In this document: positions 4,324-9,881 of the stretch, piece by piece
Layout: each line of letters begins with the position of its first letter
How positions within the stretch are numbered: position 1 is the first letter of the stretch
Source: Pantoea sp. 1.19
GTDB taxonomy: Bacteria; Pseudomonadota; Gammaproteobacteria; Enterobacterales; Enterobacteriaceae
Length of the DNA: 64,000 bases
Direction of reading: 5' to 3'
NCBI RefSeq assembly: GCF_001922585.1
Contig: NZ_MRBS01000002.1
Location: 372,001-436,000, forward strand
The notes under the pieces: generated by a model
What the model saw: the letters and a program-made list of their open reading frames with translations, nothing else
What the model was told of the DNA's origin: nothing
Database searches by the model: none
Made by a program: the position numbers and the translations under genes

Positions 4324-6327
4324 ATGTCATCTCGCAGAGAACGCGCTAATGCCATCCGCGCCCTAAGCATGGATGCCGTACAGAAAGCCAATTCCGGCCA
4401 CCCCGGCGCGCCAATGGGCATGGCCGATATCGCGGAAGTGCTGTGGCACGATCACCTTAAGCACAATCCCGGTAATCCACACTGGGCCGATCGCGACCGC
4501 TTTGTGCTGTCGAACGGCCATGCGTCCATGCTGCTCTACAGCCTGCTGCACCTGACCGGTTACGATCTGCCGCTGGCAGAGCTGAAAAACTTCCGCCAGC
4601 TACACTCTGCAACGCCCGGGCATCCGGAATATGGCTATACGCCGGGCGTAGAAACCACCACCGGCCCGCTGGGACAGGGGCTGGCTAACGCGGTAGGAAT
4701 GGCGGTCGCCGAGCGTACCCTGGCGGGGCAGTTTAATCGTCCCGATCATACGATTGTCGATCACCATACCTGGGTGTTTATGGGCGACGGCTGCCTGATG
4801 GAGGGGATCTCCCATGAGGCCTGCGCACTGGCCGGCACGCTGGGGCTGGGCAAACTGATCGGCTTTTACGATCACAACGGTATCTCCATCGATGGTCATG
4901 TGGAGGGCTGGTTTACCGACGACACGGCGCAGCGGTTTGAAGCCTACCACTGGCACGTGATCCGCGACGTTGACGGCCACGATCCCACCGCAATCAGCCA
5001 CGCTATTCAGCAGGCGAAAAAGGTAACCGATAAACCGTCGCTGATCATTTGCCGGACCACCATCGGCTTCGGTTCGCCGAACAAAGCGGGAAAAGAAGCC
5101 GCGCACGGTTCGCCGCTGGGCGAGGAGGAAGTGGCGCTGGCCCGCCAGCAGCTGGGCTGGCACCACCCGGCCTTTACGATCCCCAAAGCTGTCTATGACG
5201 AGTGGGATGCCCGGCCGGCCGGCGAGCAGCGCGAGCAGGCGTGGAACGCTACCTTCGCTGCTTACGCCAAGGCCTGGCCCGAGCTGGCCGCGTCGTTTAC
5301 CCGCCGGATGCAGGGGGAGCTGCCGGATAACTGGCAGGCCGATACCGACGCCTTTATCCAGCAGCTGCAGGAAAATCCGCAAAACATCGCCAGCCGTAAG
5401 GCCTCACAAAATACCCTGGAGTGCTACGGCAAGCTGCTGCCGGAGCTGCTGGGCGGCTCCGCTGATCTTGCGCCCAGCAACCTGACCCTGTGGTCCGGCT
5501 CGGTCGCGCTGAGGGACGATCCGGCCGGTAACTATCTGCACTACGGCGTGCGTGAGTTTGGCATGACCGCTATCGGTAACGGCATTGCGCTGCACGGTGG
5601 CTTTATTCCTTATACCGCCACGTTCCTGATGTTCGTCGAGTATGCGCGCAATGCGGTGCGCATGGCGGCGCTGATGAAGGCCCGACAGGTGCTGGTCTAC
5701 ACCCACGACTCTATCGGTCTGGGAGAAGACGGTCCCACTCACCAGCCGGTTGAGCAGCTGGCCAGTCTGCGGGTGACGCCAAACCTCAGCGTCTGGCGCC
5801 CCTGCGATCAGGTGGAAACCGCCGTGGCGTGGCAGCATGCGGTGGCCCGCCAGCACGGTCCGACCGCGCTGATTCTGTCGCGCCAAAACCTGCCGCAGCC
5901 GGCGCGCAGCGCGGCGCAGCTCCGGGACATTCACCGCGGCGGCTACGTGCTGCGCGAGAGCGAAGGCGGTACGCCGGAAGTGATTCTGATCGCCACCGGT
6001 TCAGAAGTGGCGATCACGCTTGACGCAGCGGAGACGCTCAGCGCCGAGGGACATCGGGTGCGGGTCGTCTCCCTGCCCTGTACCGACCTGTTTGATGCGC
6101 AGGATGTCGCCTGGCGAGAGTCGGTGCTGCCCTCCTCGGTCACCGCCCGGGTGGCGGTCGAGGCCGGCATTGCCGACTACTGGTACAAGTATGTCGGCCT
6201 GAACGGCAGCATCGTCGGCATGAACGGCTTCGGTGAATCGGCCCCGGCCGATCGGCTGTTTGCCGAGTTTGGTTTTACCGCCGACAACATCGTTGCTCAC
6301 GCGAAACGGCTACTCACAGTACACTAA
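4324..6327 (+). CDS. tktB: Transketolase B
   Basis: 667 residues, the length of E. coli TktB. A thiamine-diphosphate and Mg-dependent enzyme that moves two-carbon units between pentose, heptose, triose and tetrose phosphates. Visible signatures are the N-terminal [12 protein letters not shown] segment (about residues 22-33), the [13 protein letters not shown] cofactor motif near residue 154-166, and the central pyrimidine-binding region with REFGM near 405. The start at 4324 has AAGGAG just upstream. It is partly uncoupled from talA by an intervening terminator. Adjacent to talA it is better called tktB than tktA, although sequence alone would not exclude the paralogue. Confidence 0.96.
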
Positions 6328-6334
6328 CCGATTC

Positions 6335-6362
6335 CGGGCGGGGCCAATCCCCGCCCGATCTT
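6335..6362 (+). terminator. Terminator after tktB
   Basis: A perfect 9-bp stem CGGGCGGGG/CCCCGCCCG (6335-6343 with 6349-6357) around a 5-nt loop, followed by ATCTTCCT. The T-run is weak, but the stem is strong and sits eight nucleotides past the tktB stop codon. Confidence 0.7.
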
Positions 6363-6491
6363 CCTGCTGCCACGCCACCTTCCGGTTCCATGCGCTGCAT
6401 CAATCTGCGGCCGGTTATTTCCCTTCAACAACTACATCCAGGTATTAATATACCCCAACACCGCAATATGATGTAGACAAGGAGCTTTCGC

Positions 6492-8345
6492 ATGTCTGAC
6501 CCCTACCTGCGCCTGCTGCGCGAGGTGCGCGGCCTGCTGGAACAAAACCATCCGGCGCTGCTGACGGAGAATGCCAATAAGGATAGCCAGGCGATTCCCA
6601 CCCAGCGCGATCTGCTGGCGGGGATCATGGCGCGCGAATACGCCTGTCAGCACCTGCTGCCGCCGGAGATCGTCACCGCACACCAGCGCGGTGAGATTCA
6701 CTATCACGATCTGGATTACGCGCCTTGCTTTCCGATGTTTAACTGCATGCTGGTCGATATAGGCGGCATGCTCCGCGAGGGATTTCGCCTCGGCAATGCG
6801 GATATTGCCCCACCCCGCTCCATCGCCACCGCCGCCGCACTGACCGCGCAAATCATTGCCCAGGTTTCCAGCCACATCTACGGCGGCACCACGCTAAACC
6901 GGCTGGATGAGGTGCTGGCGCCGTGGGTGGAAGCCAGCCTCGCCAAACACCGCGCAATCGCCGATGCCTGGCAACTCACCGACGCAGCCGGCTATGCGCG
7001 CGCGCAAACGGAAAAAGAGTGTTACGACGCCTTTCAGGCGCTGGAGTATGAGGTCAACACGCTGCACACCGCTAATGGTCAGACGCCGTTTGTCACTTTC
7101 GGCTTTGGTCTCGGCGACAGCTGGGCGGCGCGACTGATCCAGCGTTCAATCCTGACGGTACGCCGAGACGGACTCGGTCAGCAGCGCCGCACGGCAATCT
7201 TTCCCAAGCTGGTATTTGTGCTGAAGGCCGGCCACAATCTGCATCCGCAGGATCCCTGTTACGACATCAAGCAGCTGGCGCTGCGCTGCGCCAGCGAGCG
7301 TATTTATCCGGACATCCTTAATTATGACCGGGTGGTCGAAGTCACCGGTTCCTTTAAAACGCCGATGGGCTGCCGCAGTTTCCTCAGCGACATACCGGGC
7401 GCCCCCGGGGCAGCGCACGAGGGACGCAATAATCTCGGGGTGATCACCCTCAATCTGCCGCGGCTGGCGCTGGAAGCCAACGGCGATTTGGCTGCGTTCT
7501 GGCGCCAGCTGGACGCGCGCCTGCCGCTGGCGAGAGCGGCGTTGATGACCCGCGTGGCGCGGCTGAACGGCGTGAAAGCGCGGGTGGCGCCCATTTTGTA
7601 TATGGAGGGAGCCTGCGGCGTCCGCCTGGGACCGGATGACGATATCGCGCCGCTGTTTACTCGCGGACGCGCCACCCTGTCGCTGGGCTTTATCGGTCTG
7701 CATGAAACGCTGAATGCGCTCTGCGGTGATGCTATCCATCCGTTTGACGATCCGGCTCGGCAGCAGCTTGGAGTGGCAATTGTTCGCCATCTTCGCGCGG
7801 CCACCGACCGCTGGCAGGCCGAGACCGGCTACGGCTTCAGCCTGTATGCCACCCCCAGCGAGAGTCTGTGCGACCGCTTTTGCCGGCTGGATCGCGCCGC
7901 CTTTGGCGACGTGCGTGGCGTCACCGATAAGGGCTACTACACCAATAGCTTTCATCTCGACGTCGGCAAACGGGTCTCGCCGTTCGATAAAATCGACTAT
8001 GAGCAGCCCTATCCGGCGCTGTGCAGCGGAGGATTTATTTGCTACGCCGAGTATCCCTCTCTGACGCACAACCTGAAGGCGCTGGAAGATGTCTGGGATT
8101 ATAGCTACCAGCGCGTCCCCTATTACGGCACCAACCTGCCGATCGATGCCTGCCATGCCTGCGGCTTTCGCGGCGAATTTCGCTGCACCAGCAAAGGGTT
8201 CAGTTGCCCGCGCTGCGGCAACCGCGATCCCGCCACGGTCTCGGTGATTCGCCGGGTCTGCGGCTACCTCGGCGCGCCGGACGCGCGGCCCTTTAACCCC
8301 GGTAAGCAGGAAGAGGTACGGCGGCGGGTCAAACACGGCGAATAA
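6492..8345 (+). CDS. nrdD: Anaerobic ribonucleoside-triphosphate reductase lacking the ATP cone
   Basis: 617 residues. This class III glycyl-radical enzyme reduces ribonucleotides to deoxyribonucleotides without oxygen. The C-terminal radical loop RRVCGYLG carries the radical glycine at about residue 591, and four zinc cysteines form CxxC pairs at about 554/557 and 572/575. E. coli NrdD is 712 residues; alignment from memory puts the first residues here at about E. coli position 95, so the N-terminal allosteric ATP cone is missing. No cone-like coding is visible upstream, and AAGGAG at 6479-6484 fixes the start, so this looks like a natural short form. nrdG follows 10 nt later. E. coli has no nrdDG at this map position. 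Confidence 0.93.
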   Translation: MSDPYLRLLREVRGLLEQNHPALLTENANKDSQAIPTQRDLLAGIMAREYACQHLLPPEIVTAHQRGEIHYHDLDYAPCFPMFNCMLVDIGGMLREGFRLGNADIAPPRSIATAAALTAQIIAQVSSHIYGGTTLNRLDEVLAPWVEASLAKHRAIADAWQLTDAAGYARAQTEKECYDAFQALEYEVNTLHTANGQTPFVTFGFGLGDSWAARLIQRSILTVRRDGLGQQRRTAIFPKLVFVLKAGHNLHPQDPCYDIKQLALRCASERIYPDILNYDRVVEVTGSFKTPMGCRSFLSDIPGAPGAAHEGRNNLGVITLNLPRLALEANGDLAAFWRQLDARLPLARAALMTRVARLNGVKARVAPILYMEGACGVRLGPDDDIAPLFTRGRATLSLGFIGLHETLNALCGDAIHPFDDPARQQLGVAIVRHLRAATDRWQAETGYGFSLYATPSESLCDRFCRLDRAAFGDVRGVTDKGYYTNSFHLDVGKRVSPFDKIDYEQPYPALCSGGFICYAEYPSLTHNLKALEDVWDYSYQRVPYYGTNLPIDACHACGFRGEFRCTSKGFSCPRCGNRDPATVSVIRRVCGYLGAPDARPFNPGKQEEVRRRVKHGE

Positions 8346-8355
8346 CGGAGAAGAC

Positions 8356-8820
8356 ATGTACTATCACGCTTACTACCCGCTGGACGTGGTCAACGGCCCG
8401 GGCACGCGCTGTACCCTGTTTGTTGCCGGCTGCGCGCATCGCTGCCCGGGCTGTTATAACCGGAGTACCTGGCGGATCGACTCCGGCAGGCCATTTACCG
8501 CGGCAGTGGCCGATCGGCTGCTGGCCGATCTGGGGGATCGGCGCATTCCGCGCCAGGGCTTGTCACTGAGCGGCGGCGATCCGCTGCACCCGGCCAACGT
8601 CGCAGAGATTGCGCGGCTGGTGACGCGGGTGCGCCAGGCGTATCCGCAGCAGGATATTTGGCTGTGGACCGGCTACCGGCTGGCAGAGCTGAACGCCGCA
8701 CAGCGGGCGATCCTGCCGTGGCTGGACGTGCTGATTGACGGCCGCTTTGAGCAGGATCTGGCCGATCCGGGGCTGATCTGGCGCGGCAGCCGCAACCAGG
8801 TGATTCACCGTCTGCGCTAG
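8356..8820 (+). CDS. nrdG: Anaerobic ribonucleotide reductase-activating protein (radical SAM)
   Basis: 154 residues, the E. coli NrdG length. The radical-SAM cluster motif CxxxCxxC is CAHRCPGC (Cys26, Cys30, Cys33), and SGGDPL near residue 73-78 binds S-adenosylmethionine. It installs the glycyl radical on NrdD, whose gene ends 10 nt upstream, so the two form one operon with GGAG as ribosome site. The stop overlaps the 3' end of the convergent ypfG by 3-4 nt. Confidence 0.95.
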   Translation: MYYHAYYPLDVVNGPGTRCTLFVAGCAHRCPGCYNRSTWRIDSGRPFTAAVADRLLADLGDRRIPRQGLSLSGGDPLHPANVAEIARLVTRVRQAYPQQDIWLWTGYRLAELNAAQRAILPWLDVLIDGRFEQDLADPGLIWRGSRNQVIHRLR

Positions 8821-9881
8821 TCGCTGACCGCGCGGGTCTGCCACAGCGGCGGCCAGTCGCGACTGCCCTGCCAGCTATCACATGCCGACTGCGCGGCATA
8901 GTCGGCCAGTACAAAGGTTTTGCCATTGAATTGCCAGCGCGCACGCCAGCCGCAATCCCCCAGTCCGCGACCGCTGGCGGCGGTAGACAGCTGGCTGCTC
9001 ACCGCATCGTAACCGGCATTGATTAACTCGAGATGGCGATCGCCATGTCCGGGCGGGGTAAAAGGCAAACGCAGACTGATATCTCGGGCAACGTACGGCG
9101 GGCGGCGACTCACCTCCCACCCCAACGACACGGTGTTGTAAGCGCCCTTCTCGCAGCTCACCAGCAGCAGCGCCTTTGCGGCGGTGAGCGGCGCAATCGT
9201 CACCGCGCGGCTCAGCGGATCGAGCGAGCAGCCATCGGTATTCACCCGCCAGCTGCCAAAATCTATCAGGCCACGGCGCTCTTGCGGGCTGAGCGGTGGC
9301 GCGGCGTTACGCACCTGCCATACCTCCGGCGCCCGCGGCATCGGGGCCAGCGCCGTGGCCCCGCGCGGTCCGCGGCTGACCCAGGCACTCAGGCTACCCG
9401 CACGCCCCTGCTGACGATCCAGCTCCGCCAGCGCCGCCGCCAGGCCGTCCAGCCGGAAGGCCGCCTCGGGCTGCCAGGTCATTTGCAGGCTATCGGCGGC
9501 CATCATTTGCGCCAGAAACTCGCTGATGGCAATCGCGTGATGGGTGTGCAGATGGTGTGGCTGCACCTGCCAGTGTTTCAGATCGATCTGCAGCCGGCGG
9601 CCATCCAGCAGCAGCGTATCGGCCAGCGCTTCGCCGCGCAGCGGGCCGGTAAACGCGCTGCCGTAATCGAGGCGCAGCGTCGGCGCATCGTGGATGCCCG
9701 CCTGACGCGACAGGGTCATGACCAGACCGCGGTCGCCCGGTACACTGCGCACCACGCAGGCATTCAGGTTGGTGCAGGTCAGCTGCCAGTGGCCGAAAAG
9801 CGTCTGCAGCGGATCGGCACGCAGGCTGCCGCTCAGTAGCAACAAGGCGGTCAGCAGCAGCCCTTTTATTCCGTCAGGCAT
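8817..9881 (-). CDS. ypfG: Exported DUF1176 protein YpfG
   Basis: 354 residues. A cleavable signal peptide is clear: a hydrophobic run from about residue 7 to 19 ending at LRA, then mature DPLQTLFG. The rest fits DUF1176, of which E. coli YpfG is a member. The next gene on this strand is nudK, as in E. coli, where ypfG lies between tktB and nudK; here nrdDG has been inserted before it. Paired cysteines (about 36/42, and near the C terminus) fit a periplasmic disulfide protein. No biochemical role is established. The start has only a weak ribosome site. Confidence 0.82.
   Translation of the reverse strand: MPDGIKGLLLTALLLLSGSLRADPLQTLFGHWQLTCTNLNACVVRSVPGDRGLVMTLSRQAGIHDAPTLRLDYGSAFTGPLRGEALADTLLLDGRRLQIDLKHWQVQPHHLHTHHAIAISEFLAQMMAADSLQMTWQPEAAFRLDGLAAALAELDRQQGRAGSLSAWVSRGPRGATALAPMPRAPEVWQVRNAAPPLSPQERRGLIDFGSWRVNTDGCSLDPLSRAVTIAPLTAAKALLLVSCEKGAYNTVSLGWEVSRRPPYVARDISLRLPFTPPGHGDRHLELINAGYDAVSSQLSTAASGRGLGDCGWRARWQFNGKTFVLADYAAQSACDSWQGSRDWPPLWQTRAVSD

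Follow-up and report, generated by a model that had tools for sequence, protein, structure and literature searches.

A class III ribonucleotide reductase without the ATP-cone in a Pantoea genome, and cone loss in related Enterobacterales

The window analysed here, a stretch of 64,000 nucleotides from the genome of Pantoea sp. 1.19, encodes an anaerobic (class III) ribonucleotide reductase, NrdD, that consists of a full-length catalytic core without the N-terminal ATP-cone. We consider it very probable that this is a working, formate-type enzyme whose cone was deleted in the ancestor of its Erwiniaceae genus, in one of at least three independent losses, and that the control by dATP has been left to NrdR. 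Natural deletion of the cone has occurred three separate times in E. coli-type class III enzymes, once within a genus that also has cone-bearing members, and the three cases are ready comparisons for the role of the cone in vivo and for a possible take-over by NrdR. Coneless NrdD is in itself already a known kind: in the survey of PMC4390871, 24% of 2426 NrdDs were without a cone and close relatives are said to differ. Among the literature matches listed, with most subscription journals outside the reach of the search, there was no report of a coneless NrdD in Xenorhabdus, Erwinia or their kin, and within the same reach no papers matched NrdD together with Xenorhabdus.

The nrdDG genes and their leader

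The nrdD gene (6492..8345, forward strand) has an ATG start and 617 open codons. Its product, of 617 aa, is 95 residues shorter than the NrdD of E. coli (712 aa), and only 25 residues stand ahead of the NxN active-site flap motif (codons for E26-N27-A28-N29, 6567..6578, forward strand; the role of the flap is taken from PMC12662201) vs. about 115 in the 712-aa enzymes. The core itself is complete. Pfam NRDD (PF13597) is matched from 1 to 562 of its 562 positions with 591.5 bits, Gly_radical is also matched, and TIGR02487 gives 603.3 bits over a cut-off of 326. The ATP-cone model PF03477 was absent from the Pfam matches of the protein at E up to 1, a home-made cone model gave E 0.13, and the match to NCBIfam PRK09263 (712 positions, E. 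coli type) begins at position 100. The absence of the cone, first noticed in a sequence-only reading of this DNA, is thus borne out.

All the catalytic residues that we could name are kept, i.e., C85, the finger loop M292 G293 C294 R295 (MGCR), the zinc-type cysteines C554, C557, C572 and C575, and the radical glycine G591 within RVCGYLG (codon 8262..8264, forward strand, position read from the sequence); their roles are presumably those of the equivalent residues in the T4 enzyme. G591, C294 and the four zinc-type cysteines were invariant in an alignment of 18 rows. The gene of the glycyl-radical activase, nrdG (8356..8820, forward strand, 154 aa), follows and is intact, with PRK11121 and TIGR02491 both over their cut-offs and matched almost end to end, so that the completeness of glycine loop, cysteines and activase partner claimed beforehand holds. 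The finger loop has a methionine two residues ahead of a single cysteine (M292/C294), and since the MGCR loop is given as the mark of formate-type NrdD (PMC9669993) the enzyme is predicted to be of this type. A PFL-like enzyme encoded in the same genome is the likely source of formate. The specificity-site residues Q120 and E187 are also retained. The AlphaFold model of the protein was poor (mean pLDDT 56.5) and therefore gives no structural support.

The short start appears to be genuine. A ribosome-binding site, AAGGAG (6479..6484, forward strand), lies 7 nt ahead of the ATG, and a scan with a matrix built from six published E. coli NrdR boxes (sequences from PMC12176259) detected two NrdR-box-like sites on the forward strand, a weak one (6429..6444, score 4.8) and a better one (6461..6476, score 7.7), separated by a 16-bp linker and with a pair score of 12.5 (shuffle p about 0.007). 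Two such sites with a linker of 15–16 bp are found in the nrdD leaders of Erwiniaceae. The distance from the end of the pair to the start codon is 15 nt in the window, 19 nt in the genome of another species of the genus (G068) and 11–22 nt in ten cone-bearing Erwiniaceae. This native-like spacing indicates a leader of native type, directly behind which the cone codons are missing. No cone-like translation was seen by eye in any of the six frames of 6328–6491. Given this and a leader geometry that suits the short start, a mis-called start or a truncation by frameshift can be ruled out, in agreement with the original call of the start.

Genomic position and number of copies

Upstream of nrdD lies tktB (4324..6327, forward strand), identified as a transketolase gene from its open reading frame and from transketolase homologues in the four genomes searched (4/4). 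Downstream, and convergent with nrdG, is a ypfG-like gene (8817..9881, reverse strand) that keeps the name given to it in the sequence-only reading. This location differs, as that reading had pointed out, from the one in E. coli, where nrdDG adjoins treC. At 16 other named Erwiniaceae nrdD loci, compared over about 6 kb on each side, neither tktB nor ypfG was found beside nrdD (0/16), and treC was present in six. The only genus-mate genome in the sample, G068, has a short NrdD of 616 aa, also within the tktB–ypfG interval, so that a cone-bearing gene at the same locus in relatives, which would have pointed to a local truncation, was not encountered. In G068 permease-like, LuxR-type regulator and GNAT-like genes (assigned by eye; L116:2200-4621), absent in the window, are located on the opposite strand between tktB and nrdD. 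About 350 nt separate its nrdD from nrdG (L116:6820-7170), with minus-strand reading frames that read as repeated short units, and TTG is given as the start codon of its nrdG. The 64-kb window had no matches when scanned with Rfam and for tRNAs.

The question whether this was a second copy or the only one can be answered from the genome (3.79 Mb in 41 contigs, rated 100% complete), in which the profile search found one NrdD; a second copy is not supported. With a limit of E 0.1, only two ATP-cones were detected there. The first belongs to NrdA (775-aa frame); the second, in a frame of 177 aa, is preceded by a CxxC...CxxC ribbon, as in NrdR. No separate cone protein that could act in place of the missing domain was found. 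We extended the search with PF03477 to 18 genomes. In each of the five with a cone-bearing NrdD there are three cones (in an NrdR-size frame, an NrdA-size frame and the NrdD frame). The other 13, among which two lack NrdD, contain two cones each, and no separate cone protein was found, aside from a weak third match in the Xenorhabdus-type genome G568 (C5:7099-7356, a 779-aa frame). In a search of nine genomes for class I large subunits, the window genome had one, NrdA (G000 C12:235444-236970), as did two Xenorhabdus-type genomes, and G068 and five others carried an additional one of NrdE size.

A gene of this length and layout resembles that of phage T4 (605 aa in the PDB entry), and the window gene could have been derived from a naturally coneless NrdD of a T4-like phage. 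We regard this as practically dismissed. The enteric chromosomal NrdDs that were fetched are 69–74% identical to the window protein. Records with a match in a phage collection numbered 2800, of which 15 fell at 60–80% identity, and among the 13 of these 15 that were seen the closest (all near 72%) were two Salmonella assembly contigs (501 kb) and one unannotated record of 2 kb; the best other phages among those seen, of Vibrio and Aeromonas, reached 60–62%. Three phage rows tried in a tree of 129 cores sit away from the window, the leader is of Erwinia type, and the core groups with Enterobacterales NrdD, not with a phage-derived group, by which a phage or plasmid origin was rejected. Among plasmid records 31 of 132 matched at 60–80%, and those listed are mostly enteric or Vibrio-group NrdDs. 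Among large phages, Klebsiella phage phi1_146002 and Vibrio phage GRLPWR (L142, L143) encode a cone-bearing NrdD by the home-made cone model, unlike phage T2.

Separate cone losses among relatives

In a GTDB family sample of 198 genomes, 123 had an NRDD match. Six of them (G026, G028, G051, G054, G104 and G107, counted from the list) contained only fragments or a stop-filled frame, and five of the remaining 117 had an open frame of less than 700 codons: the window genome (622), G068 (629), G115 (634), G012 (662) and G160 (671). In G026 the gene is split into two parts about 16 kb apart (C1:2199591-2217436), and it is also broken or split in G028 (C1:4571065-4572777), G051 (C48) and G104 (C1). 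The short form is thus common to the window genus (2/2 genomes sampled) but it is not a feature of the Erwiniaceae as a whole, given that the home-made model found the cone in the 16 other loci of the family. With this model E was below 1e-10 in 113 of 138 frames, two partial rows being skipped. The frames that fell short, 25 in number and in part repeats of one genome, belong to the window genus, to Xenorhabdus, to the group of G115 and to phage T2. From the Xenorhabdus group the model was applied to 12 short frames out of 26 plus six further rows, and from the G115 group to both short frames.

The genus of G012 appears to be Xenorhabdus, as L128 and L123 contain N-terminal stretches identical to those of the Xenorhabdus loci L075 and L088. 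NrdD was found in 26 of its 30 genomes, one per genome and always in frames of 630–701 codons; the match was absent in four, one of which is only 82% complete. In the genus of G115 all six genomes have NrdD, two of them short and four with 721–733 codons.

In the tree of 129 cores the window and G068 come together (SH-aLRT 99) among Erwiniaceae, and a careful 46-row tree unites them again (100/99), beside Erwiniaceae rows. G115 and G598, whose loci are 99.2% identical over 4770 nt, are nested in the 46-row tree inside their own genus (100/99), and Xenorhabdus joins the cone-bearing Photorhabdus (98/92), so that the state of the cone changes three times on this tree. A single clade of all coneless rows was rejected (p-AU 4.13e-07), as was one of the window genus with Xenorhabdus (AU 3.5e-4), although the window row is a long branch and the test is itself open to the long-branch attraction of the model. 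The exact place of the window row is unsure because its branch is very long; that of G068, which shares the same cone loss, is not long in the 129-core tree. The cone has been lost at least three times independently in the group.

What remains at the start of the gene also differs. No trace of the cone is left in the window genus, where nrdDG is at a new place. In Xenorhabdus a hairpin-sized start remnant seems, by eye, to survive in G573 and others, and none was seen in L095, L124, L130, L131 and L132. In G115, nrdD begins 115 nt after treB (named by eye), with no open reading frame of at least 120 aa between them, and has a short N-terminus of its own.

Rates of change, dATP control and known enzymes

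Another explanation would be that nrdD of the window is losing its function, an anaerobic reductase for which there is little need having begun to decay with, among the first steps, the loss of its cone. Window and G068 are 75% identical over the NrdD core and 94.7% over NrdA, and with P. dispersa as outgroup the changes in NrdD are divided 85:25 between window and G068 (chi-square 32.7). As a reference, NrdA gave 15:18 to 19:12 over five outgroups, and NrdG 16:14 with P. dispersa and near even values over six, including a reversed 9:19 with [Erwinia] mediterraneensis. Over nine outgroups the NrdD ratio ranged from 85:18 to 63:34, being weaker with G031 (72:34) and [Erwinia] mediterraneensis (63:34), and in one more case (74:32). 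TktB was also uneven (52:36 twice, 50:38 and once 66:29), so that the acceleration, although strong in NrdD, is among the neighbours not wholly confined to it. At 407 near-constant columns (unchanged in 99% or more of 108 cone-bearing rows) the window departs 46 times (one a gap), compared to 11 in G068, 7 in the Xenorhabdus consensus, 2 in G115 and 20 in the most deviant cone-bearing row, and the activity of the window enzyme could therefore be impaired. Its operator is weak, and the cases of Xenorhabdus-type genomes without a match and of broken genes in G028, G051 and G104 given above also fit a dispensable reductase. However, the 617 codons are open, the named catalytic residues and nrdG are intact, G068 lost the same cone and is not a long branch, and pN is far below pS between the two nrdD genes (0.158 vs. 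0.76; dS is saturated and no dN/dS is given). Together with a dN/dS of 0.043 for one Xenorhabdus pair, this shows purifying selection on nrdD, and we find decay unlikely. In the G115 lineage there is a hint, not a firm one, of relaxed selection: its changes against the cone-bearing G599 are 27:11 with G595 as outgroup and 17:15 with E. coli, and the dN/dS of G115/G598 is 0.127 for nrdD, from very few changes, vs. 0.022 for nrdA. Xenorhabdus against Photorhabdus gave 33:24 to 41:18 with Proteus as outgroup and mostly even values with E. coli.

Accelerated change in the core might also mean that some new feature of it, e.g., a nucleotide-binding site or an oligomer, now does the work of the cone, leaving total activity still under dATP. 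New ligand sites are mentioned for the cone-lacking class Ib enzyme of B. subtilis (PMC9669993; see also PMC6572854), and four near-constant positions (48, 49, 256 and 424 of the window protein) have changed in the window genus as well as in Xenorhabdus, G068 and the Xenorhabdus consensus sharing these 4 departures where 0.19 were expected. The same kind of sharing is, however, inflated between cone-bearing rows (16 vs. 4.5 expected in 136 pairs), G068 shares 2 departures with the cone-bearing Photorhabdus, and G115 shows none of the four changes. The shared columns fall to 2 if every Xenorhabdus row must depart (R424 is kept in 2 and N256 in 3 of 14 rows), and phage T2, also without a cone, keeps K48, H49, N256 and R424. 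The parallel changes were consequently not accepted as proof of lost cone contacts, given the inflated null, and may be taken as a hint only; a gained substitute seems to us very unlikely.

The preferred reading, a working core with dATP control left to NrdR, has a mechanism suggested by other enzymes. In the NrdD of Streptococcus thermophilus (StNrdD) dATP induces pairing of the cones, which then keep the connector and its NxN flap away from the active site; ATP in the cone is contacted by K171 and N167 of the core (PMC12662201). In the alignment these two map to R66 and T62 of the window protein and the flap to N27-A28-N29. With no cone to restrain the connector, dATP should not stop the window enzyme, which would be insensitive to it at the enzyme level. 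For good binding to the E. coli nrdDG promoter NrdR needs dATP together with ATP or ADP (PMC12176259), so that promoter-level feedback by dATP can continue, and reliance of coneless reductases on transcription has been offered as a presumption (PMC4390871). After the deletion the native-type leader would have come to stand directly ahead of the core, with nrdDG placed in the tktB–ypfG interval, and with the cone lost feedback is probably exerted through repression of the genes by NrdR at the operator. A box pair was found ahead of nrdD in every coneless lineage scored: the window pair (12.5) is the weakest of those scored, vs. 22.0 in G068 and 17.5–32.9 in ten cone-bearing Erwiniaceae, and values were 26.9 in G115 and G598 and 30.0–33.8 in six Xenorhabdus rows, with L093 at 33.1 from a later start; the nrdA operator of the window genome scores 22.3. 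The description of the gene as possibly unregulated was right about the cone and overstated otherwise, because the specificity residues Q120 and E187 and an NrdR-type operator, weak here, remain. It is possible, but doubtful, that cone loss is a repeated adaptive switch from enzyme- to promoter-level dATP control in some Enterobacterales, with parallel changes at former cone-contact sites, and that the promoter arm is fading as well in the window species; anaerobic dNTP synthesis would then be nearly free of dATP feedback, with a possible rise of dNTP pools and of mutation in the absence of oxygen.

Among known systems, the closest is the E. coli-type NrdD (PRK09263), which has in common with the window enzyme the core, the MGCR loop, the zinc-type cysteines, the radical glycine, the nrdG partner and the upstream NrdR boxes, and differs in having the first 95 residues, i.e., the ATP-cone, and in lying beside treC instead of between tktB and ypfG. 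The NrdDs of T4 and T. maritima have no cone either (PMC11226230). That of T4 (PDB 1h78, 605 aa) is likewise a cone-free core with a short N-terminus, aligning from window residue 9, but belongs to a phage lineage, of which the related phage T2 record is 51% identical to the window protein. In PDB 9d3x, taken from its length and mapping as the StNrdD of PMC12662201, the flap, Q225, E293 and K171 fall in the alignment on N27/N29, Q120, E187 and R66; the NrdDs of S. thermophilus and Prevotella copri carry the connector-restraining cone that the window enzyme is without. Xenorhabdus NrdD is also coneless and has kept its NrdR boxes, and differs in being the product of a separate loss, in some cases with an apparent remnant of the start.
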